This document shows, piece after piece, positions 11,341 through 46,949 of a DNA stretch of 64,000 nt. Every line of letters begins with the position of its first letter. Positions within the stretch are counted from its first letter, which is position 1. The stretch lies in contig OX485803.1 in assembly GCA_950295325.1 (NCBI GenBank), forward strand, positions 35,913,554 through 35,977,553, in the 5' to 3' direction. The position numbers and the translations under genes were made by a program. Below the pieces are notes generated by a model. It saw nothing but the letters and a program-made list of their open reading frames with translations, was not told the origin of the DNA and searched no databases. Source of the stretch: Polytrichum commune (lineage: Eukaryota; Streptophyta; Polytrichopsida; Polytrichales; Polytrichaceae).

Positions 11341-12473
11341 TCATCCATGCGGTTTCAAGTGGGATGAATTTAATAGGAAGTTATCTACTGTATTTTTTAG
11401 GTGGACTCCAGCTTCATGTTTGTGTAGGAATAACGTTCTAGTGATAGGTAATCTAACACAGTGGTGGTATTTAATGCGGGTTATTTCTTTAGAGCCCCCA
11501 AATTTTGCGAGTACAAATTGTGTCAAACCATAATAGATTTTTCCAAGTCTTCCTTTATCATTGAGGGCATTTTGTATTTGTTTCCCGATACAGTGCAAGT
11601 AGGCATTTTGTAGTGAAAATGCTTCAATTCCGAATAGATCATGTGGGAGTTGTGTAGTAATATTAGATGTGCATTTTGATAATCCGCATATTGTTTTATG
11701 AAGTGCTATAATTTTTTTATCAAGTTTTTTGATAGCCGGAATAGAGTTTGGTATTGCGTAGAAGCTGTATGCTATTACAGCACGTATGAGAATATATGTC
11801 ATGTTGATTTTTTGTTTTATAGTGGTTGGGTATGCTACGAGGGCTTGGCATTGTTTGATGACTTTAGCTCTAGTGGTATTTATTTGTGTTTTCCATTTAA
11901 GTGATGTTGCAAGATTTATTCCAAGATAAGTGTATGGTTCGTGTTGGTCTAAAACTGGTAATAGTTGGTTTCTATAGTTTATATTGGTAGATTGGACCAG
12001 GGCTTTAAATATTATGGGATTCATTTTGGATATATTAGGGCATCCGGTCACTGCGCATTTGGATATTCCTAAGTCCATTCGTACCCATTCGCAAAATTTG
12101 TCTAATTTGTTTCGTAATATTTGTAATGATTTTGATTTGTTAGCAATTATTGCTAAGTCATCAGCATATGATGTGGATGAAATTTGAACTTTGGATGTTC
12201 CAAAGGTATATCCATTATCGCCTTGTTGTAACCATCTAAGGAGGGATTCTAAAAATATTATAAATAGGTATGGGCTGAGAGTATTTCCTTGTATTGTACC
12301 TCTTTGAATTGGGATATGTAGGATTTTACCAAAGTATTCTCCAAAAAATATACTGGAGGATTGTAAGTATATGTTTCCGATGAGGTTTATAGCGCCGGTT
12401 GGGTATCCAATATCTTTCATTATGACTAAAAATCTTGCATGGTCGATGGAGCCGAAGGCATTTTTGAAGTCAA
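11341..12473 (-). pseudogene. LINE reverse transcriptase, palm and thumb part
   Basis: A 359-residue open stretch contains IQRGTIQGNTLSPYLF (RT motif with the conserved QG) and SYADDLAIIA, the catalytic YADD box, followed by a typical thumb. Upstream of its first Met the same frame continues with FKNAFGSIDHARFLV up to 12473, where the Ty3/gypsy element begins. The preceding residues (YIIYID) are found across the insertion at 22301 onwards, so the RT domain was cut between adjacent codons. This stretch is the best-preserved part of the LINE. Confidence 0.88.
12470..12473. repeat. Target-site duplication, left copy
   Basis: tcaa directly precedes the TGTCACG start of the LTR element and recurs at 22301-22304 after its ...ACGACA end. 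The identity extends to tcaatgt, so a duplication of 4 to 7 bp fits. Removing the insert and one copy restores the LINE RT reading frame. Confidence 0.85.
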
Positions 12474-12905
12474 TGTCACGTGAGGTGATATCGGGGGCTA
12501 AGTCACGTCAATTTAGGAGTAAATGGACTCCATTAGGAGTCCATGTGTGTTAGGATGAGTAACGGACTCCATTGGGAGTCCTAGTTAGTTGTTCATCCCC
12601 TCCATGGATGAACTCCACATAGGATTGGGGTTGTATGGAGAGGAAGGCCTCTTGACTTGCCATTGTTGTCAAGTCAAATCTTGTGAGTGTGTTTTCAGAG
12701 AGAGAGAGCTTGTTGTTGCTTTCTCATGGCTATGGTGTAGTAGATTATGAATAAAGCCTTTGCATTCTTTCTCCACCACTTGCACTCTTGGATTCTCCCT
12801 TCGTGGAGTGAGAGATAGCTTGACTCTTGTGTGTGAATTTTAGAGTTTCTTAAGCTTTGTAAGGAGACATTTTAGTTTCTTAAGCTTGGAGAGAGAAACC
12901 CTCAT
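12474..12905 (+). repeat. Terminal repeat block A1 (5' LTR part)
   Basis: 432 bp, matching 21762-22193 with one difference seen (AATAAA here, AGTAAA there). It starts TGTCACGTGA, which includes a G-box core CACGTG. Inside are palindromes ggactccattaggagtcc and ggactccattgggagtcc and a TTCATCC/GGATGAA pair, a TATA-like tgtatgga at about 12632, and AATAAA at 12750-12755. These suggest promoter, transcript start near 12662 and polyadenylation signal within the block. Confidence 0.9.
12632..12674 (+). promoter_or_regulatory. Putative core promoter and RNA 5' end of the retrotransposon
   Basis: A TATA-like tgtatgga lies about 28 bp before attgttgtcaagt (12662-12674). That 13-mer is exactly complementary to the sequence immediately after A1 (12906-12918). 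In the self-priming Tf1 group of Ty3/gypsy elements the first nucleotides of the mRNA anneal to just such a site, so 12662 is a reasonable transcript start. This is inferred, not shown. Confidence 0.45.
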
Positions 12906-12918
12906 ACTTGACAACAAT
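12906..12918 (+). promoter_or_regulatory. Putative self-complementary primer-binding site
   Basis: acttgacaacaat abuts the end of A1 and is the exact complement of 12662-12674. No TGG-starting tRNA-complementary site is seen here, so priming by the element's own RNA 5' end, as in Tf1, is the best reading. Confidence 0.5.
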
Positions 12919-14288
12919 TTGCTCAAAATTTTCATTTTTTGGTTGTATTTCTGAGCTAGAATGGCCCAGTATTGAGAGCAAATGAGTGATACAAGTGTTT
13001 GAAAGCTTAGTTTGTCATTTCTTGCAACCCTCAAGAAGATTTTGAGAGAAATCTTCCCATTTTTCTTTTGTTGTCTCTTTGTGTTTTCTTCAAGTGTTGA
13101 TGGTTGAATCTTGAGATTCTATTTGGTCTCAAGATTCTCAAGTCACATCATTCTTGCTTGCAATTTGTAAAAGCAAAGTTTAATTTTTTTTTTAAATTTA
13201 CAAACAAACACAAACCAAATTTAAAATCCGAATTTTTTTTAAATTTTTTTTAAGCTCCGGAGCTCCACGGACACTCTTGAAGCTCCTGGAGCTCCTGGAG
13301 CTCCAATTCTGCACCCCGGGGCGGGGGTGGACAATCACGGGCCGGGGGCGGGCGGGCGGCAGCCGGGCCCCGCAGCTAGGTGGCAGCGGGCCGGGGGCGG
13401 GCGGGCGACAGCCTGGCCGGATGGCGGGCGGCGCCAGCCTGGCCCCCCCTCCCCTTTTCAGGTAACCCCCCCCCCTTTTGCCTTTAAGTTAGACTTGATT
13501 AACTTAGTTAGTTAGATTAATTAGCTTAATTAAGTTAGTTAATTAGGTTAGTTAATTCACTTAGATTAACTTAATTAATTAGGTTCATTAGTTTAAGCTA
13601 ATTAAGTTAGGTTGAGTTAAATTAAATTAATTAACTTAATTCATTTAAGTTAATTAAGTTAATTAAGTTAATTAAGTTAAAGTTTATTTTATTTTATTTA
13701 TTTATTTTTGGTTTTGGTTTTGGTTTTTGTTTTTGTTTTTGTTTTGTTTCATTAAAACAATTATTTTATTTTATTTTATTTTATTTTCACATTTTTACTT
13801 TTACCTTTCAAACTTGGCATCCAATTCTCACAAACTTTGAGGTTCAAATTTGGGGGTATACTAGCTCCAAACGGAGTGAAATTTGAGCCTATCTTGTGTG
13901 AAATTTGCCAAGGAATCCAATGGTGTAATTGGATTGTTGATTGGAATTCAAAATCATTGCTGAAATTATTAATTTCAACGCTGATTTTTGTTTTTGGGAG
14001 CAAATTAACTCCGAACGGAGTGAAATTTGAGCCTAATTTGTGTGAAATCTTCCTAGGAGTCCATTGGTGCACTTAGTTTGTTGATTGGAGTCCATAATCA
14101 CCTTGGAAATGAGCCTTTTCAACGCTGATTTTTCATTTTAATTACCAATCTCAAACCTTTGCACAATTTTGGAATTCTGGGGGCATAAACACTTGGCATT
14201 TGGCAAGGGATTGCCATTTATATAGCCCGCAACAGGTGCAGGTTGCCATTACCTTCTAGATAGTTGCAGGTACTCAAGTGATTATTTT
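12919..14288 (+). other. Untranslated leader of the retrotransposon
   Basis: No gene is supported. It contains repeated ggagctcc units near 13258-13300, a GC-rich patch (13310-13450), a long ttaattaagtta-type tract (13490-13680), TTTTG/TTTTA runs, and a roughly 140-bp tandem duplication (about 13858-13990 and 13998-14130) marked by aacggagtgaaatttgagcc and caacgctgattttt. Such a long structured leader precedes gag. Confidence 0.6.
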
Positions 14289-16139
14289 ATGGTGCAAACT
14301 AGGAGCCGATATTATCGATCTCCATCACCAGATTACTTGGAGGATGTGCATACCACAAATCTTGAGCCAGAGGTAGATACCAACGAGGCTTTTGAGCCTA
14401 TTTCGGCGTTGGACACTACTAGTAGGCTTCGGATTTGGAGTGTCGGCACGTTCGACGAAATGGAGGACGATCGCCACAATTCAGTGCGTGATCGGTTTTC
14501 AGGTCGAGCTGGGGGCATTTCCTTGCCCGATTGGAAACTCCGGTTTCGTACCTGGATTAAGGAGAAACGCCAAAGGTCTTCCAATTTCAATGATTGGTAT
14601 GCCTTTGAACTTCTGCCTCAGCATTTGGAGTATGAGGCACTCCAAACTTACGAACGCTGGACAGAGGGTCATCAGCGACAACTTCGGGAAGTGGAGCAGT
14701 ATTGGGAGGCCCGGGTTGAGCTTATTTCAGCCCTTAAAGATGGGGCGATTGCTACCTTAGCTCCACCCACCTTAAAGGAGGAGGAATCGCCGGCGGAGTC
14801 TAAGGACACGGAACTGGCACTTGGGCCAATGGTGGCTAGCAGTAGCACGGCAACCCTTTCACGGGTGGCACGTGCTACACAGGCAGCATTGACGGCTGTT
14901 GGTCCACCACCTCCGTTTAATCCCCTTACTGAATTTGTCGCACATTTGGAAGTGGAGTATGGTGGGTTTCGGCGAGACCAGATGCAGCGCATCCAGGATT
15001 TCCGCCGAGAGAAGGATGATACTCCACGGACCATGTATACGCGACTCGCGCGATTTGCTGTGGAGTCGGGAGGTGTTTTTGCTGAGAGTCAGCTTGTTAA
15101 AATCTTTTTGTCTAAAATTGACAAGCGGCTACTTGAGTTGGCATCACCTCGGATTATCCTCGACTACGAGGGCCGAGCTACGCTTGCACAAGCGTTTGCC
15201 GTGGTTGAGAGATGTGATCGGGCTCTTTGCCAACATGATGCCACGGATATGGTATCTTGGATGACAGAGAGTCCGAAACCAAGAAGAATTGTCACAGCTA
15301 CTAGTAGTTTAGCTGAGACTCAACCCGTCAAGGAGCAAAAGATTTTGCATTGTGGGGGTTGTGGAGAAGCTGGTCATTCGAAGAATGATCCCAATTGTCC
15401 TAAGAAGAAGAAAACTCAGCCTTTGGGAAAATTAAAACAAAAGATGGAACCAGTAAGGGCAAGGGACAATTCTAAGAAGAGACAATTGAAATGTAACCAT
15501 TGTGGTGGCACTAATCACGATGTGGATCATTGTTTCCTACTTCATCCTGAGATGCGGCCTGCCAGTTATGTCACTGGAAAGTCTCCAAGGGAGCAGAGTC
15601 TTGAGGCTAAGGTGGCGGAGCTTGAGCAAAAGCTCAAATCTTCTGCATCTTTTGCTCAAATTTCTGAGCCGCATGTGGGTGGTGGCACCTCGGGTTCGGA
15701 CATGTATATGTTTGGAGCAGCTGGAGAGGTGGTGGCGGCGGCTTCTACTCGCTCACAAACATTGGCAGATGCGGTGGCTTCCACGAGTGGGGGTAGCCAC
15801 GAGGTGCTACATCCTCGCCATGCCGGACCAGCTGAACAAATTGGTCAAGCACGTTTACCTCTTTCATTTGGATTGGTAGACACCACTGTTGTTGGGGCTA
15901 AAAACCCTGTACCTTTGAGAGATGGGGATTCCATCTCGAAGGATGTTACGCAGGCATTGGCATACAAAATTCTCCATATGCCAATTTTCTCGGGTTCGGA
16001 GTTTATGGCGTCGGATTTCAAGCCTGCTGCAGTTTTTCATTTAGCTGGGAGAATGTTAGAAGGTAAGGCGGCTTTGCCATCCCTTCAAGTATCCCAAGCT
16101 GTGTTGACGTACCTGTGGCTGACGAGGTGGAGGACTTAG
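14289..16139 (+). CDS. gag: Gag polyprotein with two zinc knuckles
   Basis: A 616-aa open frame from the first ATG after the leader (MVQTRSRYYRS). The central part is capsid-like: WKLRFRTWIKEK, then FVAHLEVEYGGFRRDQMQ and TMYTRLARFAVESGG resemble the retrotransposon Gag domain. Two zinc knuckles follow: CGGCGEAGHSKNDPNC (C-x2-C-x4-H-x6-C) and the canonical CNHCGGTNHDVDHC (C-x2-C-x4-H-x4-C). It should package the RNA in a cytoplasmic particle. The frame overlaps the next one by 73 nt (16067-16139), with the downstream frame at -1, so a -1 shift or another bypass is needed to make Pol. No classic slippery heptamer was recognised in the overlap. Confidence 0.9.
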   Translation: MVQTRSRYYRSPSPDYLEDVHTTNLEPEVDTNEAFEPISALDTTSRLRIWSVGTFDEMEDDRHNSVRDRFSGRAGGISLPDWKLRFRTWIKEKRQRSSNFNDWYAFELLPQHLEYEALQTYERWTEGHQRQLREVEQYWEARVELISALKDGAIATLAPPTLKEEESPAESKDTELALGPMVASSSTATLSRVARATQAALTAVGPPPPFNPLTEFVAHLEVEYGGFRRDQMQRIQDFRREKDDTPRTMYTRLARFAVESGGVFAESQLVKIFLSKIDKRLLELASPRIILDYEGRATLAQAFAVVERCDRALCQHDATDMVSWMTESPKPRRIVTATSSLAETQPVKEQKILHCGGCGEAGHSKNDPNCPKKKKTQPLGKLKQKMEPVRARDNSKKRQLKCNHCGGTNHDVDHCFLLHPEMRPASYVTGKSPREQSLEAKVAELEQKLKSSASFAQISEPHVGGGTSGSDMYMFGAAGEVVAAASTRSQTLADAVASTSGGSHEVLHPRHAGPAEQIGQARLPLSFGLVDTTVVGAKNPVPLRDGDSISKDVTQALAYKILHMPIFSGSEFMASDFKPAAVFHLAGRMLEGKAALPSLQVSQAVLTYLWLTRWRT

Positions 16140-18094
16140 CCAATTTGCGAGCGAGTCTTGCGGATGCGGCGATCATTGCTTTTGGTAAGCAAACTGATAT
16201 TCCTCCAGCATCAATTTCAGCAGTGGATACGTCATTTTCGAATTATGCGTCGGGAGCGGCATATCTTGCAGACATTTCTGCAAGGCCTGCTCGCGAACGG
16301 CATAATTTGCAACCTGGAGTTGTACGGCTGATGAACGACAAATCTTTGTTTGTCGTTTCACGCACGGATATGTCCACTATCCGTGCTACACCACTGAGAG
16401 TTATGATGGATTCCGGTGCTCAACCGGTTATGATTGGCAAAGGACTTGCTGACAGTCTTGGATTGACGCCAGCAAGCTTGGATCCTTGTCCATTTACTAT
16501 TGTGACTTCAGTAGGGGGCACTGAACGTGCAACAGGTTACACCAAGGCACCTCTACGTTTGATTTTTCATGTGGGGGCAGGGCCTACTTACACTCATTTG
16601 TCAATGAAGTGTGTTGTTACTAATGCTACCAACTATGATATACTTGTTGGTCAACAAGCTCTTTACCCACTTGGCTTTGGTTTGGATAATTGGACGGAAG
16701 AGGCATGGATTAGACCGGGATGGTCCACTGGAGATGGCAGGAAGGTATTTATTCCTGTCACATTTGCAGCCACTGCTATGACTATGGTTGCGGAGGCAAT
16801 GTTTGGTTGCAGCGGTTTAGTTGCAGATTTGCCTTGTGCTCCAGTTTTATTGGAGGAAACAATGGACTACACTTGTAATGCGGCAGAACAACAATTTTTA
16901 CCATCTTTTCAAATTCCTGCTCGACATTTCAAGGATCCACCTCCACCATGGCGAACTCCTAAGGAGTTATCCGACCATTGTCGACACATTGTAGCGGATT
17001 TGGAGCTTGGAGAGGCATCCCCAACTTCATCCTCATTTTCTTTTGCTCAACTCATTCGTTGGCAACCATCACCTGAAGGTATTGTCCTTGTGGAGATCTT
17101 TGGAGGCATTGGCACAGGTTTGGCGGCAGTGTTGGAAGCTGGAATTACAGTTTGGCGATATATTCATGTGGACAATGGGTATGCAGCCAACAGAGCCGTC
17201 CGACACTACATCCAACAATTGTTGTTGAGATACCCCGCACAATTGTCAGCCTCTGCCATTCATGGATGTTGTGGTCAACTTCCTCAAGATGTCACTATGA
17301 TTAGTGATGAGGATTTGAGAAGGTTGGGCCACGTGGATTTGATTATTGCAGGATGGCCTTGTCAAGGCCATTCGCGGGCAGGCACTAGCCAGGGATTGGA
17401 TGATCCTAGGTCTAGTTTGTTTGCGGATTTGATGCGATTGACGCAATGGTGGTTTACCCACCAATCAACTCCGCCAGGGTACATTTTCGAAAATGTACCA
17501 TTATTGGGTGATACCCGACACAAAGTGGTGAAGGATGGTGAGTACATTAACCAAATTTTGGGTACTCCAACATTTCTGGATGCTGCATCTTTGGGATCCT
17601 TTGCTCATCGGCCTCGTTGGTTTTGGACCAACTTGGTATCACCTCGGGTGCTGTCAGCGGCGATTGCCCGCATTCCCCGCCTTATGGATCGCAAGGTGGA
17701 TGACATTTTAAATGATCATCGTGTTTCCTTGGCAGTTACCAAGGATGACACCTTGCCATTTGCATTAATTTACAAGGTGGGAATTCCGAGAGGTGCACTA
17801 CCTACTTTTGTGACATATCCACAGTCTTTTGCATTTCGATCTCGTGGACCTGGCATGGTTTGGGATTCAAAATCCCAAACTTATGAGGAGCCTACGGCAG
17901 ATGAGCGGGAACGCGCCATGGGTTTTCGTACAGGTACCATGGCTGCTCACGGGCTTCAGGAAGGTCAGAGACGTTTCCTATTGGGGCAAGCTATGGATCT
18001 TAATAGCATTGTGTGGATAATTGGAATTTGTCTTGCTGCTCAACAACGTATGGATGACCGATTGCTTATTCTGAGAGCAGAGAACAATGGTTAG
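16067..18094 (+). CDS. Retropepsin fused to a C5 DNA cytosine methyltransferase
   Basis: The frame is open from 16067; no ATG fits the start, and expression probably comes by frameshift from gag (numbering here is from the GTG at 16115). Retropepsin: VMMDSGAQPVMIGKGLA, with the catalytic D-S-G-A at residue about 99. Methyltransferase: motif I FGGIGTG (about 329-335), motif IV GWPCQGHS with the catalytic Cys in PCQ (415-417), motif VI ENV (459-461), motif VIII AHRPRWFWTN, then ERERAMGF and RRFLLGQAMDLNSIVWI (motifs IX-X). The HRPRWFWTN form recalls DNMT3/DRM enzymes, whereas PCQ is the more general version. All key catalytic motifs are intact, so an active CG-type or de novo enzyme acting on the element's own DNA is plausible. 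The frame ends in TAG at 18092-18094. Confidence 0.93.
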   Translation, partial: GGFAIPSSIPSCVDVPVADEVEDLANLRASLADAAIIAFGKQTDIPPASISAVDTSFSNYASGAAYLADISARPARERHNLQPGVVRLMNDKSLFVVSRTDMSTIRATPLRVMMDSGAQPVMIGKGLADSLGLTPASLDPCPFTIVTSVGGTERATGYTKAPLRLIFHVGAGPTYTHLSMKCVVTNATNYDILVGQQALYPLGFGLDNWTEEAWIRPGWSTGDGRKVFIPVTFAATAMTMVAEAMFGCSGLVADLPCAPVLLEETMDYTCNAAEQQFLPSFQIPARHFKDPPPPWRTPKELSDHCRHIVADLELGEASPTSSSFSFAQLIRWQPSPEGIVLVEIFGGIGTGLAAVLEAGITVWRYIHVDNGYAANRAVRHYIQQLLLRYPAQLSASAIHGCCGQLPQDVTMISDEDLRRLGHVDLIIAGWPCQGHSRAGTSQGLDDPRSSLFADLMRLTQWWFTHQSTPPGYIFENVPLLGDTRHKVVKDGEYINQILGTPTFLDAASLGSFAHRPRWFWTNLVSPRVLSAAIARIPRLMDRKVDDILNDHRVSLAVTKDDTLPFALIYKVGIPRGALPTFVTYPQSFAFRSRGPGMVWDSKSQTYEEPTADERERAMGFRTGTMAAHGLQEGQRRFLLGQAMDLNSIVWIIGICLAAQQRMDDRLLILRAENNG

Positions 18095-18385
18095 GGGGCA
18101 ATGGAGCCGCAATCCAAGGATCACATTGAGGTCAATGACACCGAGGGATTATTTCCTTTGAAACTTCATGTTGCGGAAGAGCTTCGAGTCCAACGTGGTT
18201 TTTCGGCTTTGGCCCAAGAGTTTGGGAAGTTGGAGGCCCATAAAATGTTTCCACTTCTACTTCTTGGTGATACTTCATATGTGGATAGCTATTTAGCTAC
18301 ACAAACTGATTGTAGTAGAGAGGATACGCATTTGGATTCAAGTGCAGATGATGGGGGCAAAGGTGTTGCCCTCTCCACGGACTAG
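18095..18385 (+). CDS. Linker segment in frame after a single TAG
   Basis: This stretch is in the same frame as the methyltransferase and is separated from it only by TAG followed by GGGGCAATGG. It could be reached by stop readthrough, or by initiation at the ATG at 18101. It is acidic, of unknown function and has no recognised domain. It ends at 18385, overlapping the RT frame, which lies at -1 and is open from about 18354; the overlap contains a GGGGG run. In related elements this region joins protease to RT. Confidence 0.55.
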   Translation, partial: GAMEPQSKDHIEVNDTEGLFPLKLHVAEELRVQRGFSALAQEFGKLEAHKMFPLLLLGDTSYVDSYLATQTDCSREDTHLDSSADDGGKGVALSTD

Positions 18386-21327
18386 CAATCATAGGCTGTG
18401 CTGGCACCAATTGGCAATCCTTCTATGAAGAAGGAAACTATGAAAGGTTGGGTGTTCAAACTCGATGTCAAGAGTTATTGGCAGCGGAATTGATTGAACT
18501 CTCCAATGGAGAGTATGCTTGTGCCACGGTTATGCCGTCAAAGAAGGATATCTTTGGCAACTGGACGGAAAAACGGATGTGTGGTGATTATCGTCCAGTC
18601 AACCGCAAGACCAAGTCGGATCGATATCCAATGCCGATGCCGGAGGAGTTGTTTGATGCACTAGGATTTTCTAGAATCTTCAGCACTTTGGATTTGAGGT
18701 CTGGTTATCACCAATTACCTTTGTTGTTGGGTGATCGGGTGAAAACCGTATTTTGGGGAATTGATAAAGATGGCAAGGATCAACTTTATCATTGGAAATT
18801 TCTGCCATTTGGTCTCAAGAATGCACCAGCTGAATTTCAGCGGGTGATGGACCAATTATTGGCTGGTTTGCCGTTTGCTAGATGTTACATTGATGATGTT
18901 ATCATGTTTAGTAATAATCCACAGGAACATGTGAGACATTTGCAAGCGGTATTTGAACGACTTCAACGGTGGGGACTCCGTTTACATCATAGAAAATGTA
19001 AGTTTTTCCATGATCAATTGCCCTATTTAGGCCACATGATTGTTCATGGCGGTCTTGGTGTGCAACAAGCGAAGGTGGATGCTTTGCACAAAATTCCCGC
19101 ACCTAGTGATGTACCACGGCTTCGTGCATTTCTAGGATTGGCAAATTATTATAGGAGGTTTGTCAAAAACTTTAGTTTGATTGCCAAACCCCTTACCATT
19201 CTCACGGGGAAAGACCAACCATGGATTTGGAGTCGGGAACAACAACAGGCATTTGATACATTGAAGCAGAGGCTCGGTTCAGCGCCAGTGCTTCGACGCC
19301 CGGATGTGTCTAGAGCTTTTCAATTGCACACGGATTGGAGTGCAGTGGGATTGGGAGCGGTATTGACACAGAAAGATGAAGAGGGAAAGGAATATGTGGT
19401 GGCTTATGCATCTAGAAGCAATAATAGTGCTGAATCTAATTATTCTTCTTATGAAGGCGAGGCCTTGGCGGCCGTTTGGGCCATTACACATTTTCGACCT
19501 TATTTGTATGGGCAAAAGTTTACTTTGGTGACTGATCATCAGCCTTTAAAATGGCTTATGGAATCAGATAAGCTCACCTGGAAACTTGCTAGGTGGGCAT
19601 TGTTACTTCAGGAATATGATTTTGAAGTTGTTCACCGAGCAGGAATTGCCAACTTGGATGCAGACGGATTGTCTCGCAATCTAAGTCCTTCAGATGAGGA
19701 TTTAACTGGAGCCAGGTGGCATGGAGATTGTGATCGTGAGGCAGTGCCGGGTTGGCATGCTGCCACATATCTCACAATGATGTCGGGATTGGCTGCTGAG
19801 ATCCTTGTAGAAGAACAGGATGAGGAGGTTGATAAATCTCTTGTTGTTAGTGATGTGTGGGAAGACCAAGCGGTCTTGTACAAACTTCAACAAGGGATAT
19901 TTCCTCTTGGACTATCTGCTATGGAGCGAGATAGAGTTAGTCACCGGATAACAAGGTTTCGTTGGGCAAACAACTTGTTATTTCGTGTGTGGCCGAACGG
20001 AACGAGGCGCATCGTTCCAAGGCCAGATCAAAGAGCTTCTTTGGTACGGCAAGTGCACGAGGAGCTTGGACATTTTGGAGTGCGAAGGACGCACTCTATG
20101 TTGCGCAACCAATATTGGTGGACTGGTATGTATCAACAGGTTGCCACTTATGTTTCTCGGTGTGAAGTATGTGACCGGGTCAGGTCAAGTTTTAATACTT
20201 TGTCACCTCAACTTCAGTCTTTACCTATTATGGGCTTGGGATATCGTTGGTCTTTGGATTTTGCCGGACCGCTTACTATCACTCCACGTGGTTCCAAGTA
20301 TGTGCTTGTGATGGTGGAGCATTTTAGTAAGTGGATTGAACTCGTGGCTCTTCCCCAAAATTCCTCAGAATTGGCGGCTATGGCATTTCTTGATCGAGTT
20401 TTGGCACGGTTTGGAGCACCTACAGAGGTGTTGACGGATCAAGGGAGAGAATTCCTTGGATCTTTCGAGGCTTTGTGTACCAAGGCTTTGATTGATCATC
20501 GGACAACTTCTAGAGATCACCCTGAGGCAGATGGCTTAGCTGAACGAGTTGTTCAGACAGTTAAGCGCGGTTTGCGGAAGTATGGATTGCTTCATGGCAA
20601 CCATCGCGATTGGGACTTGATGTTACCATGGATAGCAATGGGTTATCGTTTCAGCAGGCAAGCATCTTTGGCATCATATAGTCCTTACCAACTCTTGTAT
20701 GGACGGGAACCAATTTTACCTAGCTCGGTGCGAGAGAAATTGGCTCCCGTGGTAAACTTGGATGATCCAGATGTTTGGGCTCAATGTCTTCATGACCGAG
20801 CAGCGTTCTTCCAAAAGGCCATGCCTATGGCTATGGAGAACTTAAATATTGCTCAACATCGTGATACATTACGGTATGCTCGGATCCGCAGTGGAGCTTA
20901 TCGACCTCAGGTTCGTAGATTTTCCAAGGGGGATTATGTTTACTTGCAACGGGAGGCGCCTACGACATTGGAAGTCAAGGCTGGGCGCACGATTTTGCGG
21001 GTAAAAGATGTCTTGCCAAGTGGTATATTATTGCTTGAAGGCAAGGATGGACGGGAATGTCGTGAGCATTCAAAGAATTGTGCTCCATGTCACCTTCCCA
21101 TCGACGGCTCTGTGCATCCCGAGTTGGCGGTTGTACCACAGGGTCTGCCTTGTTATGTTTGTGGAGAGAAGACAGGAGCTGCAACAATGTTATTGTGCGA
21201 CCAATGTCAACGTGGATGGCACATGGCATGTTTGACACCTCCCCTTTTGACTCTTCCTTCTGGCAATTGGGTTTGTCCTCGTTGTCGGAAAGCCTCTCAT
21301 TCCGTGGCCGTTAATGGTCATGATTGA
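18354..21327 (+). CDS. pol: Reverse transcriptase, RNase H, integrase and PHD finger
   Basis: Numbering starts at the TTG at 18448 (959 aa to the stop); the frame is open from about 18354. RT: MCGDYRPVNRKT, TLDLRSGYHQLPL, FGLKNAPAEFQRVMD and CYIDDVIMF (YIDD at about 147). RNase H: FQLHTDWSAVGLGAVL, YEGEALAAVW, LVTDHQPLKWL. Integrase: H-H-C-C zinc region (HEELGHFGVRRTH to SRCEVC), WSLDFAGPL, VLTDQGREFLG and HPEADGLAERVVQTVK, giving the D-D-E triad. The tail (about 901-948) is a C4HC3 PHD finger: CYVCGEKTG, LLCDQCQRGWHMAC and WVCPRCRK. All motifs look intact. The PHD finger could tether integrase to histone tails, as the chromodomain does in chromoviruses. Confidence 0.95.
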
Positions 21328-21652
21328 GGATTTTGTGGATGTTTACCACATGTTTTAGTGGTAAAGTTGTTATTTAGTTGGTTGGAAATTTTATGGGATT
21401 GAAAATCACATTGAAAGAGTTATCCAAGAATTCAACATAAATTGTTGAAGGCGATTAAGGATGGGGCTCAAATTGCACCCAGCCTATAGTTCTTGGATTA
21501 CTTTCTCAATCATGAGTTTAATTCCCTAGATTACCACTACCCAATTGAATATGTATAGATGTAGCAACAACTTCATCATGTTCAACAACTCTACCGATGA
21601 GTGTGTTTGTTCCTAGCCGATTGGAGGGGCTCCTTATCTGCTAGTGGGGGCA
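21328..21652 (+). other. 3' untranslated segment with a candidate polypurine tract
   Basis: No gene. A short purine-rich tract, agtgggggca (about 21643-21652), lies directly before block B1 and is the best candidate for the plus-strand primer. It is weak, being broken by T and C. Confidence 0.4.
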
Positions 21653-21759
21653 CTTGAAGAGGTGGTTGTTTAGCATTTTAGTTTGCTATTTTATTTTGCT
21701 AATTGATGTTGACGCCGACACTCGATCTGTTGTGTTTAACGATCTTAGTTTACACGACA
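21653..21759 (+). repeat. Terminal repeat block B1
   Basis: 107 bp from cttgaagaggtggttg to acacgaca, identical to 22194-22300 except for one base (gacgccgac against gacgacgac). It is followed by gc and then block A2, so the junction gacagctgtc is a perfect 10-bp palindrome. Confidence 0.9.
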
Positions 21760-21761
21760 GC

Positions 21762-22193
21762 TGTCACGTGAGGTGATATCGGGGGCTAAGTCACGTCAAT
21801 TTAGGAGTAAATGGACTCCATTAGGAGTCCATGTGTGTTAGGATGAGTAACGGACTCCATTGGGAGTCCTAGTTAGTTGTTCATCCCCTCCATGGATGAA
21901 CTCCACATAGGATTGGGGTTGTATGGAGAGGAAGGCCTCTTGACTTGCCATTGTTGTCAAGTCAAATCTTGTGAGTGTGTTTTCAGAGAGAGAGAGCTTG
22001 TTGTTGCTTTCTCATGGCTATGGTGTAGTAGATTATGAGTAAAGCCTTTGCATTCTTTCTCCACCACTTGCACTCTTGGATTCTCCCTTCGTGGAGTGAG
22101 AGATAGCTTGACTCTTGTGTGTGAATTTTAGAGTTTCTTAAGCTTTGTAAGGAGACATTTTAGTTTCTTAAGCTTGGAGAGAGAAACCCTCAT
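21762..22193 (+). repeat. Terminal repeat block A2
   Basis: 432 bp, one difference from A1. At the position of AATAAA in A1, A2 reads AGTAAA (22038-22043), which may weaken 3' end formation. A2 is followed directly by B2. Confidence 0.9.
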
Positions 22194-22300
22194 CTTGAAG
22201 AGGTGGTTGTTTAGCATTTTAGTTTGCTATTTTATTTTGCTAATTGATGTTGACGACGACACTCGATCTGTTGTGTTTAACGATCTTAGTTTACACGACA
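22194..22300 (+). repeat. Terminal repeat block B2, right end of the element
   Basis: Second copy of block B. It ends in ACGACA and is followed by the target duplication tcaatgt (22301-22307). No B copy exists at the left end of the element. Confidence 0.9.
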
Positions 22301-23518
22301 TCAATGTAGATGATATATATATCTTGATTCATAAATATTGCATCTTATAACGCTGCGATGAGTAGTCCAAGTTGTCTGGATGTTCCTCTTTCTGCTCTGA
22401 ATCCTTCTTGGCTATCATGCAGTATTTGGTGTTTTTTACCATAAGCAGAGAGGATTGAAGTTATTGTGCTTGTATATAATTTATATATGGTGTTAGCTAG
22501 TGCAATAGGTATGTGGTTAGTAAGTTGTGATGAATCACCTTTCTTATATAATAGAATTGTTATACTAGTTTTCCATGATGCGGGAATTTGTTTTTGTTTG
22601 TAACAGTATTTAAAAAATAGAAAGAATAATTTGTAGAATTGGGGGCATATTTTTTAGAATTGAATTAGGAATTTTTTCTGGGCATGGGACTTTGTTATCT
22701 CCTAGATTTTTAAGATAGAAGTCGTATGTTTCTTGGTCAAAGTATGTGTGTAGAGGAGTTTGGGGTTCTCCACGTTGGTCAATCGTGAATCCTTCTGAGT
22801 CATGCGATGGATATTGCCTAACGCCACATGTGCAGTGCGGAGGGTGAGTATTTTGATAGTGGCATGAGAGTATTGTTGGACGGTTACAGATGAATTATTG
22901 AGTGTATATTTATTTTGCAATATCTTTAAGGCTAGTTAGGATATTATTTTGTCTATCAGTGATGAAGTCGAGAGGTGATGTTTCGGAATGTTTGAAGATT
23001 TTCCTATTTATTTATTTTTGGGTTTTTTCATACATCTGGCGGTATTTTGATACAACTTTTAGAATACAATCATTGGTGTATTTTGTGGTGATTGCCCTAG
23101 CTTCTTTATTGGTGGTTTTTGCGATAACAGCTATGACGTCAATCCATTCATTTGGGGGGGTGGATGTGGGATTTGCATATTTTGGTGGTTTCGGATTTCG
23201 TTTAAGATGGGGTGAAATTACTAGTGTGGGTTATTTTTTGCAATGTATATAGTTTTTCTAATAAGATGGTATGTGTCAAGGTGTTTTTTTCCATTCTATA
23301 GCTAGTTTTCGTGGTAGAAAACCACCTTGTTGTATTGTTATGTTCGTGAGGTATGGTATTGGGGCTGTTTTACAAGTTTTTTTAATGGTTTTTGAAATTT
23401 TGTCTACAATATTGCCTAATGATGTACATGCTTCTTGCCATTGACCAGGGGTGAGGTGGTTGTAGTTCTCTAGTAGTCTGGTTACTTCGTTTAGTTGCGT
23501 GAAATTTTCTTCGAATAA
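22301..23518 (-). pseudogene. LINE sequence between endonuclease and RT, including RT N-terminus
   Basis: Minus-strand coding remnants lead into the RT domain: the frame near 22301-22345 ends in YIIYID and continues across the insertion as FKNAFGSID. Upstream parts are fragmented. The composition (G/T-rich plus strand) matches the rest of the LINE. The longest minus-strand piece is at 22920-22702. Confidence 0.6.
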
Positions 23519-42999: not shown

Positions 43000-43233
43000 T
43001 GTCAAGTAGAATGTCTACCATGACTTGACTGATATAATTTGGTATATCTTGACAGCCTTTCTGCTCCCTTTCAGACTCCTTGGTTTAGGGTGGGTCATTT
43101 TTAGAAGTATTTATTCATGCTTTCCTTTATTGTTCATCCGTCATTTGGATCTGTCCATCATTGTTGTCTTTGGCCATTCATTTCCAATAAATAGGTTTCC
43201 CACAATGTTGAGAAACCTCTTCCATATTTCCAT
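43000..43233 (+). repeat. Duplicated leader, second copy
   Basis: See the copy at 42091-42294. It ends inside the first possible codons of the transposase gene (atgttgagaaacctc against atgttgagattcctc in the first copy). Confidence 0.75.
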
Positions 43234-46200
43234 CACCGCGCAAGGCCTCATTCCCCTCATCATGGCTCATGTGCCTGCTAACGGAGAAGTCGGTATGGCA
43301 ATCCTCATAGCCGATGGAGAGAGAGTCCCACTTACCTTTTGCATGGATGACAACGGACTAGCTTACGTGACGTCCCAACGTCTAAGTATTCGGTTCGGTT
43401 TCAGAGCGGACACTATTGTTGTTGACGAGGATATTTTTGATGTTGTCACGTCTGAGCTTACACATACCCTAGGTCGCATTTCGCATCGTGATGAGAACAA
43501 TAACATGTTTTGGACTCTTCATCCAGGTAGTTACCGAGTCTATGGCCTCACTGAATCTCAGATGGCTGCTTCTACTAAGATCCTCACTCCTCGCTCTTCC
43601 TCTACCTGCACCATTCAAACTCCTCTGCCACGTGATGTGAAGGTCAAGCTCGAACATGGTCTCAAGACGCCTATTGTAGACAACTCTAGAGTAGAATCTG
43701 TAATTACACTTTCTTCAGATGATGAGGTCAGTCCCACCAAGCCCCCGCCTCAGGTTATAGTTGGTGGGGACGCTCCTAAAGTATATCCTTTGTCGCAAGA
43801 TATTGTTAGCATAGTACCATTATTAAAACAACTTGCAGCAATGCCGGGAAAAAAAAACATTCTTAAAAAAATAGACTACTCGGTGATTAGACACGAGAGG
43901 GTAGAGTACCTTCCTGCTCTGTTCGATGGTGTTGTCATCTTCGAGTTGCCACCCGTTGGTCACACGGCCGCACGGTCACAGGCCAAGTCTATGCAAGGAA
44001 TGGACAAGCGTTACGACGGCCATGTGTGGACCAAGACCATCACCACCAACATCACAAACGACTTTGGTTTGTCCTTCCGTTCTTCCTCCTGCGTTGGACA
44101 CCTGCGTTGCAAGAACAAGGAGTGCAAATATCTAATCCGCCGACCTCGTATTTTCGAAGTCAACGAGACAGAGTTTGAAGGTTGTACCCTCCAAGCCTTT
44201 GTAGTGGATCAAGCACCCCCAACTGACTCTACGCTTGTTTGCAAGGTGTGTAAAGAACCCCCGACATGTATTGCTACATGTGGGGCTAAGATTTATTATG
44301 TTGCTGGCAAAATCAACCATACAAGAGCGTGTATCCACCTTGGAATTCACGATCACCCAATCAAGGTGGGCGACTACAGAGACACTAAGGCTGAGATCAG
44401 TGGCCTAATTGAAGAACAGATCGAGAAGACTCCCCAGGCTACCAGGAGTGCGGTTGTGTTGGAGGCTAGCAAAGTTCTAATTGGCAGTTATCTCCTTCAA
44501 CCCGATGACGCGCCAACAAAGAAGCTTTCTCTTGAGGAACTTGTTCCAGTATTCGACCGGTGCAAGGACATGGCTTCCCCAAACATTCGCAACAAGGTCA
44601 TGAGTTTCCGTTTCCTCAGAAGGTATGGTGTCATGGACTCTATCACCAAACTCCGTGGAATCAGTTTATGGGCATTTGTGCAGGAGAACAAATTCCCAGG
44701 TCAAGGGGCAGATCTTGACAAGGTTTTTGTCTTTAAGATGTCGGAAGTCGGGCTTGGTAGTGGGGTAGACTTGGTGAAGCGTATGCAGCCTAGCGAAGAT
44801 CTGGAGAATGCTTGGATTATGTTCGACCATGTGAAACGGGTGAGACAGTGGACCACAATGGCATGCCACGTGTATGACTCCACGTATTGTCGTGTCATGA
44901 CCATTGCAAGCTGTGACATGCAATCGGAGGACTGTGATGCCCAGATCGTTTTCTGGAAGAATCTCAATGCTGTGATAGAGAGGAATGGCGTTGTCGATAC
45001 CAACTTCAAGGGTTTCATGGCCGACAGTGCCCAGGCCAATTGGAATGCAGTTCGGGTCATATATGGCAACGGGAAGAAGGAGGACCGCATGGATGACCGG
45101 GAAAGAACCTGTCAGTTTCACTGGACCCAATCTATGGTTAAGTATACCGAGAAATACATCCCCGAAGAACTCTGGGAGCAACACAAGAAGATGTGCCACC
45201 AATATAGGACCGCCAGGACCATGGACGAAGCGGAGAACCTGTACCACGGGCTACGTGCATGGTGGGTATCCGCCGGGGCAGTGACAGAGAAGGCACTTGA
45301 CAAACTCGAGCTTTGGCTTGCATTCTGGCACTTCCGTTATCGCCAATGGGGAGGCTTCATGACCGGGGTATATTCACCCTAAATTTGTTGTTTTTCTTTT
45401 CTTTTCACTCTAATATGAAATAACTCTTCTCCAATTTCTAATTGCTTACACTATGTACACGCAGAAATTTACAGTAGAAGAACTAGCAGAAATGCCTTCA
45501 TGTAATCTTGCCGAATCAATACACAACAAGTGGCTTCAATCGTCTGGAAACAGCGGCGGCAACCTCTATGTTGCTACAGTGGACGACTTTGTTCGAGGCT
45601 TCCTTCAGGTTGTCAATTACTACCAGTTCCTGAAAGGTGATGTTGGCGGTACAGGCCCTACAAAGAAAGAGCTCAAGCTAAGGTTGGCAGAGCGTAGGGC
45701 GAAGCAAATGGGTAATCCTTTAGTCCTCGAAGACCCCATGATGGACATGCCTAGAGCAGAAGAGTTCTATACCCGGGTGCCTTATATGGCTGGGGAAGAG
45801 GTGTTCGGGTCCACGAAGCGCAAAGCAGATCTACCTCTTGGAGCAGAAGAGGAGTCGCACAGACCTGATAAGGTCAACTTCTCACATCCCTGTGCCTCTA
45901 GTAGGGTTGTCCGGACTTGTTCCACTGACATGCCCATAATTGTTGAAGAGGAAGATTCCAATGTCCCGGAAGTTGCACCCCCGGCGCCACATGCGGACGA
46001 TATCGTCCCGTCCCCCATCCCCGTGGGACGGATCAGCCACGTCACTGCCGTCGAGGAGACTAGGGTGAACGTGAAGGAGTGGCACATCGCTCGGTTGCCA
46101 AAGACTTCTGCCAAATGTTGTTGGGCACAGAGAGCCGTCACCAAAAAGAAGTGTACTGAGAGAATCGTAAGGGGTGCAAAATCAACCCCTACCCCTACGT

Positions 46201-46949
46201 ACACCGGTCTATGGCACAACACTAGGAGAAATGTGAAAGAGACCACAGAGTTTTTCTTTTGCTCAGATGATATCCATAGGTGCGTTAAGGGTAGCAGGCG
46301 CAAATGGGTTGTTCAATACTCTGCGGAACAGGAGAGGCCAAGCATTCCGGATGTTTGGCCAGTGAAACTTGGGACTAACCTCAAGCAATGTGAGATCCTG
46401 GCCCTCGAGGCGGCCGGATTCCAACTGCCGCAGAAAGTGCCAGTCTCACCCAGAAGGCTCTTTTCCACTGCACCGTCTCCGGCAAATTTAGACTCCGTGT
46501 CGGTGCCAGCAGATGCGGACAGGTATCCTGGGAAGAGAGAAGGGAAGCTCGTTAAGCGCACCGCAACCCGTCCAAACCCTCAGCAACGGTTATCCATGGG
46601 CTTTGCGGACTCCCTCAAAGCTCAACTCCGCTCGGTGACGATGATTCCTCACCCTGGCCATGGCTGCATCATTGCGCTAAACTCGATGACGCCACCTGAC
46701 GTGACACAATACCACATCACCATCAGTTCCCTCCCGGGTTGCACCTGCCCTGCATTCAAGAAGACAATGACCAACTTTCGAGGGCGGAGTCAATTCTCGT
46801 ATTGCAAGCATGTTTACTATATTTTTTTAAAGGTTTGCCATCGCAATCCTGATGTAGACCTTTTCATCCATGCGCCAACCTTCAGCTTCAACGAGGTCAA
46901 AGTTATTCTCGAGAGTGGAATTTTAACTCACCCTTTAGATCGGGCCTAG
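43205..46949 (+). CDS. MULE-like transposase with SWIM zinc finger, two exons
   Basis: Exons 43205-45367 and 45465-46949 join in phase 0 over a 97-bp GT-AG intron, giving about 1214 aa. The start is either the ATG at 43205, which lies in a duplicated leader, or the ATG at 43262 (MAHVPANGEVGM). The core has CHVYDSTYCRVMTIASCD, GFMADSAQANWNAVRVIYG and RTCQFHWTQSMVKYT, the D...D with C-x2-H-W arrangement of Mutator-type DDE transposases. The C-terminus has CTCPAFKK and YCKHVYYIFLKV, a C-x-C...C-x-H SWIM finger. There is also a Cys-rich stretch (CKVCKEPPTCIATC) in the middle. The reading frame is intact apart from the intron. It should cut and paste DNA between inverted repeats. Confidence 0.8.

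Follow-up and report, generated by a model that had tools for sequence, protein, structure and literature searches.

Retrotransposons carrying a DNA methyltransferase (DNMT) have been described previously, among them the gypsy element KnitGypsy-Dnmt3 of the charophyte Klebsormidium nitens and, in dinoflagellates, SymbioDIRS-Dnmt3 and SymbioLINE-Dnmt (de Mendoza et al. 2018, PMC5890265). Since KnitGypsy-Dnmt3 is already published, the capture of a DNMT by a gypsy element is not new in kind. In this current study, we analyzed a stretch of 64,000 nucleotides from the moss Polytrichum commune (contig OX485803.1; hereafter the window), in which a Ty3/gypsy-type retrotransposon encodes a DNMT3-class enzyme. 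We consider it probable that the window contains a damaged member of a high-copy, DNMT3-bearing retrotransposon family that was active recently, inserts from circular DNA and methylates its cDNA or the circle. KnitGypsy-Dnmt3 and the moss element share gypsy domains, a Dnmt3-class enzyme within the polyprotein, purifying selection on that enzyme and DIRS-like repeats (PMC5890265). However, the enzyme of KnitGypsy-Dnmt3 is described as part of the Pol open reading frame (ORF) (PMC5890265), whereas the moss enzyme ends the gag-protease frame ahead of a leaky stop codon; the hosts also differ, one being a charophyte alga and the other a land plant, and the likeness is drawn from the published description. 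The sections of PMC5890265 used here give no explanation for the repeat layout of KnitGypsy-Dnmt3. SymbioDIRS also combines a Dnmt3 with an A-coding-B-A-B order of repeats, but SymbioDIRS and SymbioLINE possess a tyrosine recombinase or LINE (long interspersed nuclear element) machinery (PMC5890265), whereas the moss element has a DDE integrase. DNMT capture by a gypsy element, known from one charophyte, is now seen in a high-copy moss family with relatives in a liverwort and in Sphagnum, which bears on the evolution of bryophyte transposons and methylation.

As judged from Pfam matches and ORFs, the window element presents protease, reverse transcriptase (RT), RNase H and integrase in the order of Ty3/gypsy elements. 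Its coding features, in positions of the window, are as follows.

14289-16139, plus strand: gag ORF of 616 aa with two zinc-knuckle-like motifs, recognized by eye; in this copy its frame differs from that of the protease
16067-18094, plus strand: protease-methyltransferase frame, 675 codons from stop to stop, with the retropepsin at about 16379-16663
17012-18091, plus strand: DNMT3-class C5-methyltransferase domain (the stretch that was folded), with motifs I, IV, VI, VIII and X
18383-18391, plus strand: in-frame leaky stop TAG CAA TCA, separating pol from the methyltransferase frame
18352-21327, plus strand: pol frame, with RT at about 18565-19041 (YIDD), RNase H, an H2C2 zinc finger and the rve integrase core at about 20242-20523 (D,D-35-E)
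21151-21285, plus strand: PHD finger at the C-terminus of pol, found by Pfam and by pattern search

An earlier sequence-only reading of this locus had proposed a complete C5-methyltransferase between the protease and RT of a Ty3/gypsy-type element, fused to the protease in one open frame. Both proposals were borne out. The motifs quoted at that time are present, the pol domains were found, and ORF 16115-18094, open over 659 aa on the plus strand, matched DNA_methylase (PF00145) with an E-value of 2e-12 (47.6 bits, cut-off 22). The retropepsin in this ORF was matched weakly (Asp_protease_2, E-value 2e-4, under its cut-off), but its active-site motif DSGAQ is present. A Pfam search with the gag ORF gave no match. 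The pol ORF matched RT, RNase H, H2C2, rve and a PHD finger, its best match in the PDB was Ty3 Gag-Pol (1e-99), and 35 residues separate D and E in the integrase. Pfam analysis of the three ORFs gave no tyrosine recombinase match, and no chromodomain was found behind the integrase, where a PHD finger stands instead.

The methyltransferase domain has the motif order I to X, a motif VIII of DNMT3 type (AHRxRxxWxN) and a predicted fold of this class, and DNMT3 is its nearest class in the PDB. Profile, predicted fold and tree thus support the assignment to DNMT3, a more specific outcome than the relationship to C5 methylases that had been anticipated. Among 50 rows of VIA-align structural matches there was no DRM or DNMT1 chain, which excludes nothing. 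A bacterial or phage origin was also considered and rejected: viral relatives, of which 28 of 57 candidate stretches were confirmed (best E-value 6e-13), are short and weak, and the nine placed in the tree cluster with M.HhaI. For analysis of conservation, 29 domains out of 51 loci were chosen, namely those in which motifs I and X were both recognizable and the intervening stretch was free of stops, a selection that favours intact domains. All five motifs were found in 25 of these 29 uninterrupted domains, with PCQ, ENV and AHRxR kept in most, and a low ratio of nonsynonymous to synonymous substitution (dN/dS) showed that the domain is under purifying selection.

To place the window copy among others, the whole assembly (408 Mb; seven contigs of 42-78 Mb) was searched; all copy counts are lower bounds. 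Of the 747 first-look candidates found with the window protein, 67 were scored, and all 67, the window copy included, matched over nearly full length at 94-100% identity; with PF00145, 123 of 353 candidates were scored and all 123 exceeded the cut-off. These searches use the domain itself and find only domain-bearing copies. When elements were instead picked by their end patterns, a scored DNMT match lay between the ends in at least 49 of 59 (a count drawing on all 67 window-protein places and 29 of the 123 PF00145 places); other copies carry the domain, as the earlier reading requires. The other ten, of normal length with 7.7-10.5 kb between end patterns (e.g., G000:C2:61153653-61162994), are either unscored, diverged or without the domain. 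An uninterrupted gag-protease-methyltransferase frame of 1386 codons was present in 15 of the 67 scored copies, and a stop-free protease-DNMT match in 31. The element is a high-copy family in the moss genome. The plastid contig of the assembly encodes rbcL and matK; among named matches this matK is closest to Dawsonia (89%), ahead of Oedipodium (75%), with one further record at 97%, and the seven large contigs accord with x = 7 of Polytrichaceae, which makes a polytrichaceous moss the most likely host. The window copy itself is damaged outside the methyltransferase domain: its gag and protease frames differ, and stops occur right behind the methyltransferase domain and again just past the leaky stop. 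The interval from its protease to the 3′ repeats is also shorter than that of most other copies by about 200 bases, a shortfall seemingly located before RT.

Two protein searches returned 27 and 35 proteins, with P0015 common to both; the named relatives are from bryophytes, including Marchantia polymorpha and Sphagnum, and no protein named Klebsormidium was among those listed. Inspected by eye, Marchantia P0044 and P0015 have gag knuckles, protease and DNMT ordered as in the moss element. Identity to it over the DNMT region was 50% for P0044 and 34% for P0061 of Sphagnum fallax; these three gag-protease-DNMT proteins, labelled hypothetical in the database, are known here from proteins alone. 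P0051 and P0053 are single frames from gag to integrase (2358 and 2352 aa). In the transcriptome protein P0055, the DNMT lies between RNase H and integrase, accompanied by a PHD finger; set against the gag-protease-DNMT order, this second arrangement shows that the position of the DNMT varies among relatives. Judging by these proteins, the bryophyte relatives extend DNMT-bearing gypsy elements to Marchantia and Sphagnum. In a genome collection, the sole relative among 34 candidates (L123) lies on a contig of a 'cyanobacterial' metagenome-assembled genome (MAG) and has the same gag-protease-DNMT-pol arrangement, for which reason it is most likely moss contamination. Moss-type retroelement sequence occurs in bacterial MAGs of Synechococcales and Obscuribacterales (L123 and P0007), probably as contamination. 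We found no report of DNMT-bearing elements of bryophytes in the open-licence PubMed Central (PMC) literature, although the occurrence of methylase capture by retrotransposons, mentioned in the sequence-only reading, is documented, for a charophyte gypsy element among others (PMC5890265). In the parts used here, a 2025 study that cites DNMT-bearing retrotransposons speaks of Copia and DIRS families (PMC12344493) and a review speaks of host methyltransferases only (PMC9033089); the words methyltransferase, PHD and Marchantia do not occur in the main text of a survey of plant long terminal repeat (LTR) elements (PMC6317226).

In intact copies, gag, protease and DNMT form the single 1386-codon frame, closed by a TAG beyond which pol follows without a change of frame. 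The stop context was TAG-CAA-TCA, TAG-CAA-TTA, TAG-CAA-CCA or TAG-CAG-TTA, all of the form CAR-YYA, in 41 of 50 loci (5 of these 50 being second fetches); in the other nine, a CAR-YYA stop was absent from the first three stops listed in that frame. L123, which is 67% identical, also has a TAG-CAR-YYA stop despite a differing peptide around it. CAR YYA was reported to be essential for readthrough in tobacco mosaic virus (TMV) (PMC2754532). The moss element shares with TMV the type I leaky stop UAG-CAR-YYA followed by an open frame; unlike in TMV, its stop separates gag-protease-DNMT from pol, and its readthrough is predicted here from the sequence. Given this conserved in-frame signal before pol, the methyltransferase should be made at the level of Gag; the leaky stop predicts the dose of the methylase.

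The ends of the element did not conform to the expected anatomy, as listed below.

12470-12473, no strand: left target-site duplication TCAA, identical to 22301-22304
12474-12905, plus strand: repeat A1, 432 bp, beginning TGTCACG and stopping exactly at the start of the primer-binding site (PBS)
12662-12674, plus strand: predicted self-primer, the predicted 5′ end of the RNA (offset 189 of A), 13 nt complementary to the PBS
12906-12918, plus strand: PBS, complementary to the self-primer, with compensatory changes in subfamily 2
21643-21652, plus strand: polypurine-tract-like AGTGGGGGCA immediately before B1, with GGGGGGGCA in the same place in subfamily 2
21653-21759, plus strand: repeat B1, 107 bp, from the repeat comparison
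21760-21761, plus strand: the GC that separates B1 from A2, in the middle of the palindrome ACA-GC-TGT
21762-22193, plus strand: repeat A2
22194-22300, plus strand: repeat B2, ending in GACA, the true 3′ end of the element
22301-22304, no strand: right target-site duplication TCAA

A single mismatch over 432 positions distinguishes A1 from A2, in agreement with the recent insertion that had been proposed. The 432-bp terminal repeat on which that proposal rested is real, but it represents just the A component of an A-coding-B-A-B layout, and the element ends 107 bases beyond it, at 22300. One copy of repeat A opens the element on the 5′ side; the other lies within the B-A-B that closes it on the 3′ side. 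In full, the order is A-coding-B-GC-A-B with TG(A)...(B)CA ends, which is that of DIRS-type split direct repeats. The A-coding-B-A-B layout recurs in other copies, and an LTR-coding-LTR anatomy was rejected. To examine these copies, 20 were fetched at both ends. Probes of subfamily 1 read both ends in 11. Each of these is bounded by TG..CA and flanked by a matching 4-bp duplication, and on the 3′ side 8 carry B-A-B and 3 a single B. The remaining 9 copies (sets L082-L090) were not read at both ends by these probes; 5 were read by repeats of their own (L085 without 5′ flank), and sets L082, L084, L088 and L089 gave no complete layout. These 5 copies constitute a second subfamily with the same layout, an A (333-335 bp where complete) that aligns with that of subfamily 1 over only ~190 bases at ~73%, and its own B (106-110 bp); matching 4-bp duplications were found in all 4 readable ones. 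Counting the window copy, every one of the 16 copies in which both ends could be read has matching 4-bp duplications. By eye, repeat A was visible in 18 of 20 further copies, which were not counted for junctions.

The 13 bases right behind A1 are complementary to offset 189-201 of A, a length reached by none of 2000 shuffles and none of 1743 control windows. Pairing of 13 was kept in 9 of 10 readable copies (10 in the other), and in subfamily 2 a pairing of 12-15 nt was found in 5 of 5, with two positions changed on both sides in a compensatory manner. A PBS right behind the 5′ repeat and complementary to a site within that repeat is also a feature of Tf1/Sushi and of plant Tcn1 (PMC6317226). 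These, however, are chromoviruses (PMC6317226), whereas the moss element has a PHD finger, permuted repeats and 4-bp duplications; in that survey, 5-bp duplications were found in 93.4% of the plant elements covered. The positions of the PBS and purine tract predict a reverse-transcription product bounded by the first base of B and the last base of A, in the order B-A-coding-B-A. In both subfamilies, the A2/B2 junction is an exact join of the PBS start and the purine-tract end, and the inserted ends correspond to the B/A palindrome ACA-GC-TGT minus its GC.

Junctions were then compared across the genome with patterns whose anchors had to match exactly and whose gap could not exceed 30. Of 93 A2/B2 joins, 84 had the common length and 9 another; for A1/PBS, 99 of the 100 matches listed (106 in all) had the common length. 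The difference in length variation (9/93 versus 1/100) gave a Fisher p of 0.008, with one odd element counted on both sides. Lengths were available for all 93 A2/B2 joins and letters for all but 17, and for A1/PBS matches lengths only. Three A2/B2 joins contain an extra A, the first base of the PBS (one also lost a nearby base and so has the common length), and two show the same loss at a CTTG microhomology; from their letters, both kinds look like end joining. An A2/B2 partner lay 5-14 kb downstream of 59 of the 100 A1/PBS sites, and the 34 A/B joins without partner may be solo A-B or diverged copies.

The odd layout of the ends suggests insertion via a DNA circle. In the mechanism that we propose, the enzyme would be made as Gag-Protease-DNMT at the Gag level and packaged in the particle, with Pol arising from a presumably minor share of readthrough. 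The 5′ end of the RNA would prime the minus strand right behind A1, as in Tf1, and the plus strand would start at the purine tract before B1, yielding B-A-coding-B-A, whose ends would be joined (A/B) into a circle. The integrase would then open the internal B/A palindrome, rather than the cDNA ends, to give A-coding-B-A-B, and the DNMT3 domain would act on the double-stranded cDNA or circle, such that new copies insert already methylated. Because expression is on the Gag side and double-stranded DNA is made before integration, the element's own cDNA is the likely substrate, and self-marking of copies or cDNA is plausible on sequence grounds. Methylation of cDNA was also proposed for SymbioDIRS by de Mendoza et al., who observed CG methylation in yeast by two retrotransposon DNMT enzymes (PMC5890265). 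The fuller proposal, that an element with a DDE integrase inserts from a circle cut at the internal B/A site, carries both a chromatin writer (DNMT3, made at the Gag level) and a reader (PHD, on the integrase), and methylates the circle before integration, is put forward tentatively. Circular-cDNA integration is an old question in retrovirology, for which the permuted ends offer a testable case with a DDE integrase.

Several observations weigh against this proposal. The enzymes of KnitGypsy-Dnmt3 and SymbioLINE gave no methylation in yeast, a result that the authors regarded as inconclusive (PMC5890265). Among very young copies dN/dS was 0.96 on 16 changes, i.e., not below 1; this is expected for recent copies but lends no support. 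Most copies are decaying, as the numbers of full frames and stop-free matches indicate. There are only a few A2/B2 variants, a single deletion is common to two of them, and they may be old variants that were inherited. The single-B 3′ ends (3/11) are explained equally well by B-B recombination and by a circle with one repeat. Finally, all 59 paired elements have A1/PBS upstream and A2/B2 downstream, and none of the 100 A1/PBS sites has an A/B join within 3 kb upstream; this asymmetry counts against a circle, in which two B/A sites would be available for opening.

This fixed order would better suit a different route, which we judge possible, though rather unlikely, in which progeny inherit the A-coding-B-A-B layout of their parent through DIRS/PAT-like templating, with the internal B1-A2 serving as splint or template for completion of the ends, and do not rebuild it by end joining each time. 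The order of repeats is that of split-direct-repeat elements, a figure legend says likewise of KnitGypsy (PMC5890265), and the one common length of most A2/B2 joins (84/93) also agrees with copying. However, the element has an rve integrase with D,D-35-E and 4-bp duplications and no tyrosine recombinase among its Pfam matches, and in either subfamily its A2/B2 junction falls exactly where the PBS starts and the purine tract ends, while varying more in length than A1/PBS. The predicted ends of reverse transcription, the A2/B2 join and its length variation lead us to favour a circular intermediate opened by the integrase at an internal site, which does not account for the fixed order.

That the host genome is the main target of the DNMT, which would silence or mark other loci there and perhaps be led to them by the PHD finger, appears unlikely. 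The PHD pattern was found in 17 of 20 fetched 3′ stretches, in both subfamilies (one across a stop), and the best PDB matches of the finger include those of PHF12, CHD4, KDM5 and UHRF1. Several of these fingers read unmodified H3, and the PHD finger could aim the integrase. The 747 first-look candidates in the genome would also accord with action on the host. Yet the stop separates the PHD finger, encoded in pol, from the DNMT, encoded with gag, and selection at the level of the element would be more readily understood if the DNMT affected the element's own copies. Still less probable is that the DNMT fold was retained to bind nucleic acid or modify RNA within the particle and not to methylate DNA. 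The gag-side position would fit such a role, and RNA methylation was raised by de Mendoza et al. for SymbioLINE (PMC5890265), but retention of the five motifs, with PCQ, ENV and AHRxR, purifying selection and DNMT3 as the nearest PDB class argue for a DNA methylase. A functionless chance or relic capture in a single copy, as the broken window copy might suggest, is hardly credible and was rejected in its simple form in view of the low dN/dS, the DNMT match in 49 of 59 end-defined elements and the gag-protease-DNMT order kept by relatives in Marchantia and Sphagnum at 34-50% DNMT identity.

Within the leader between A1 and gag, a 144-nt tandem duplication (78% alike) occupies 13849-14136, and a GC-rich region at about 13257-13480 contains GAGCTCC and CGGGCGG repeats followed by a TTAATTAAG-rich stretch. 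Elsewhere in the window, at 43010-46949, two long open frames of 790 and 511 aa had no Pfam match. Decayed matK-like stretches, probably plastid DNA transfers, were observed in nuclear chromosomes (L125 at G000:C1:44839401 and others). The element itself sits within a minus-strand LINE-type reverse transcriptase gene (11341-12473 and from 22305 onwards). When the flanks were joined with one TCAA, a minus-strand frame of 390 codons ran across the insertion site, with 13 codons on the far side, and the join carries YIDFKNAFGSIDH, which we take to be a LINE-type motif.

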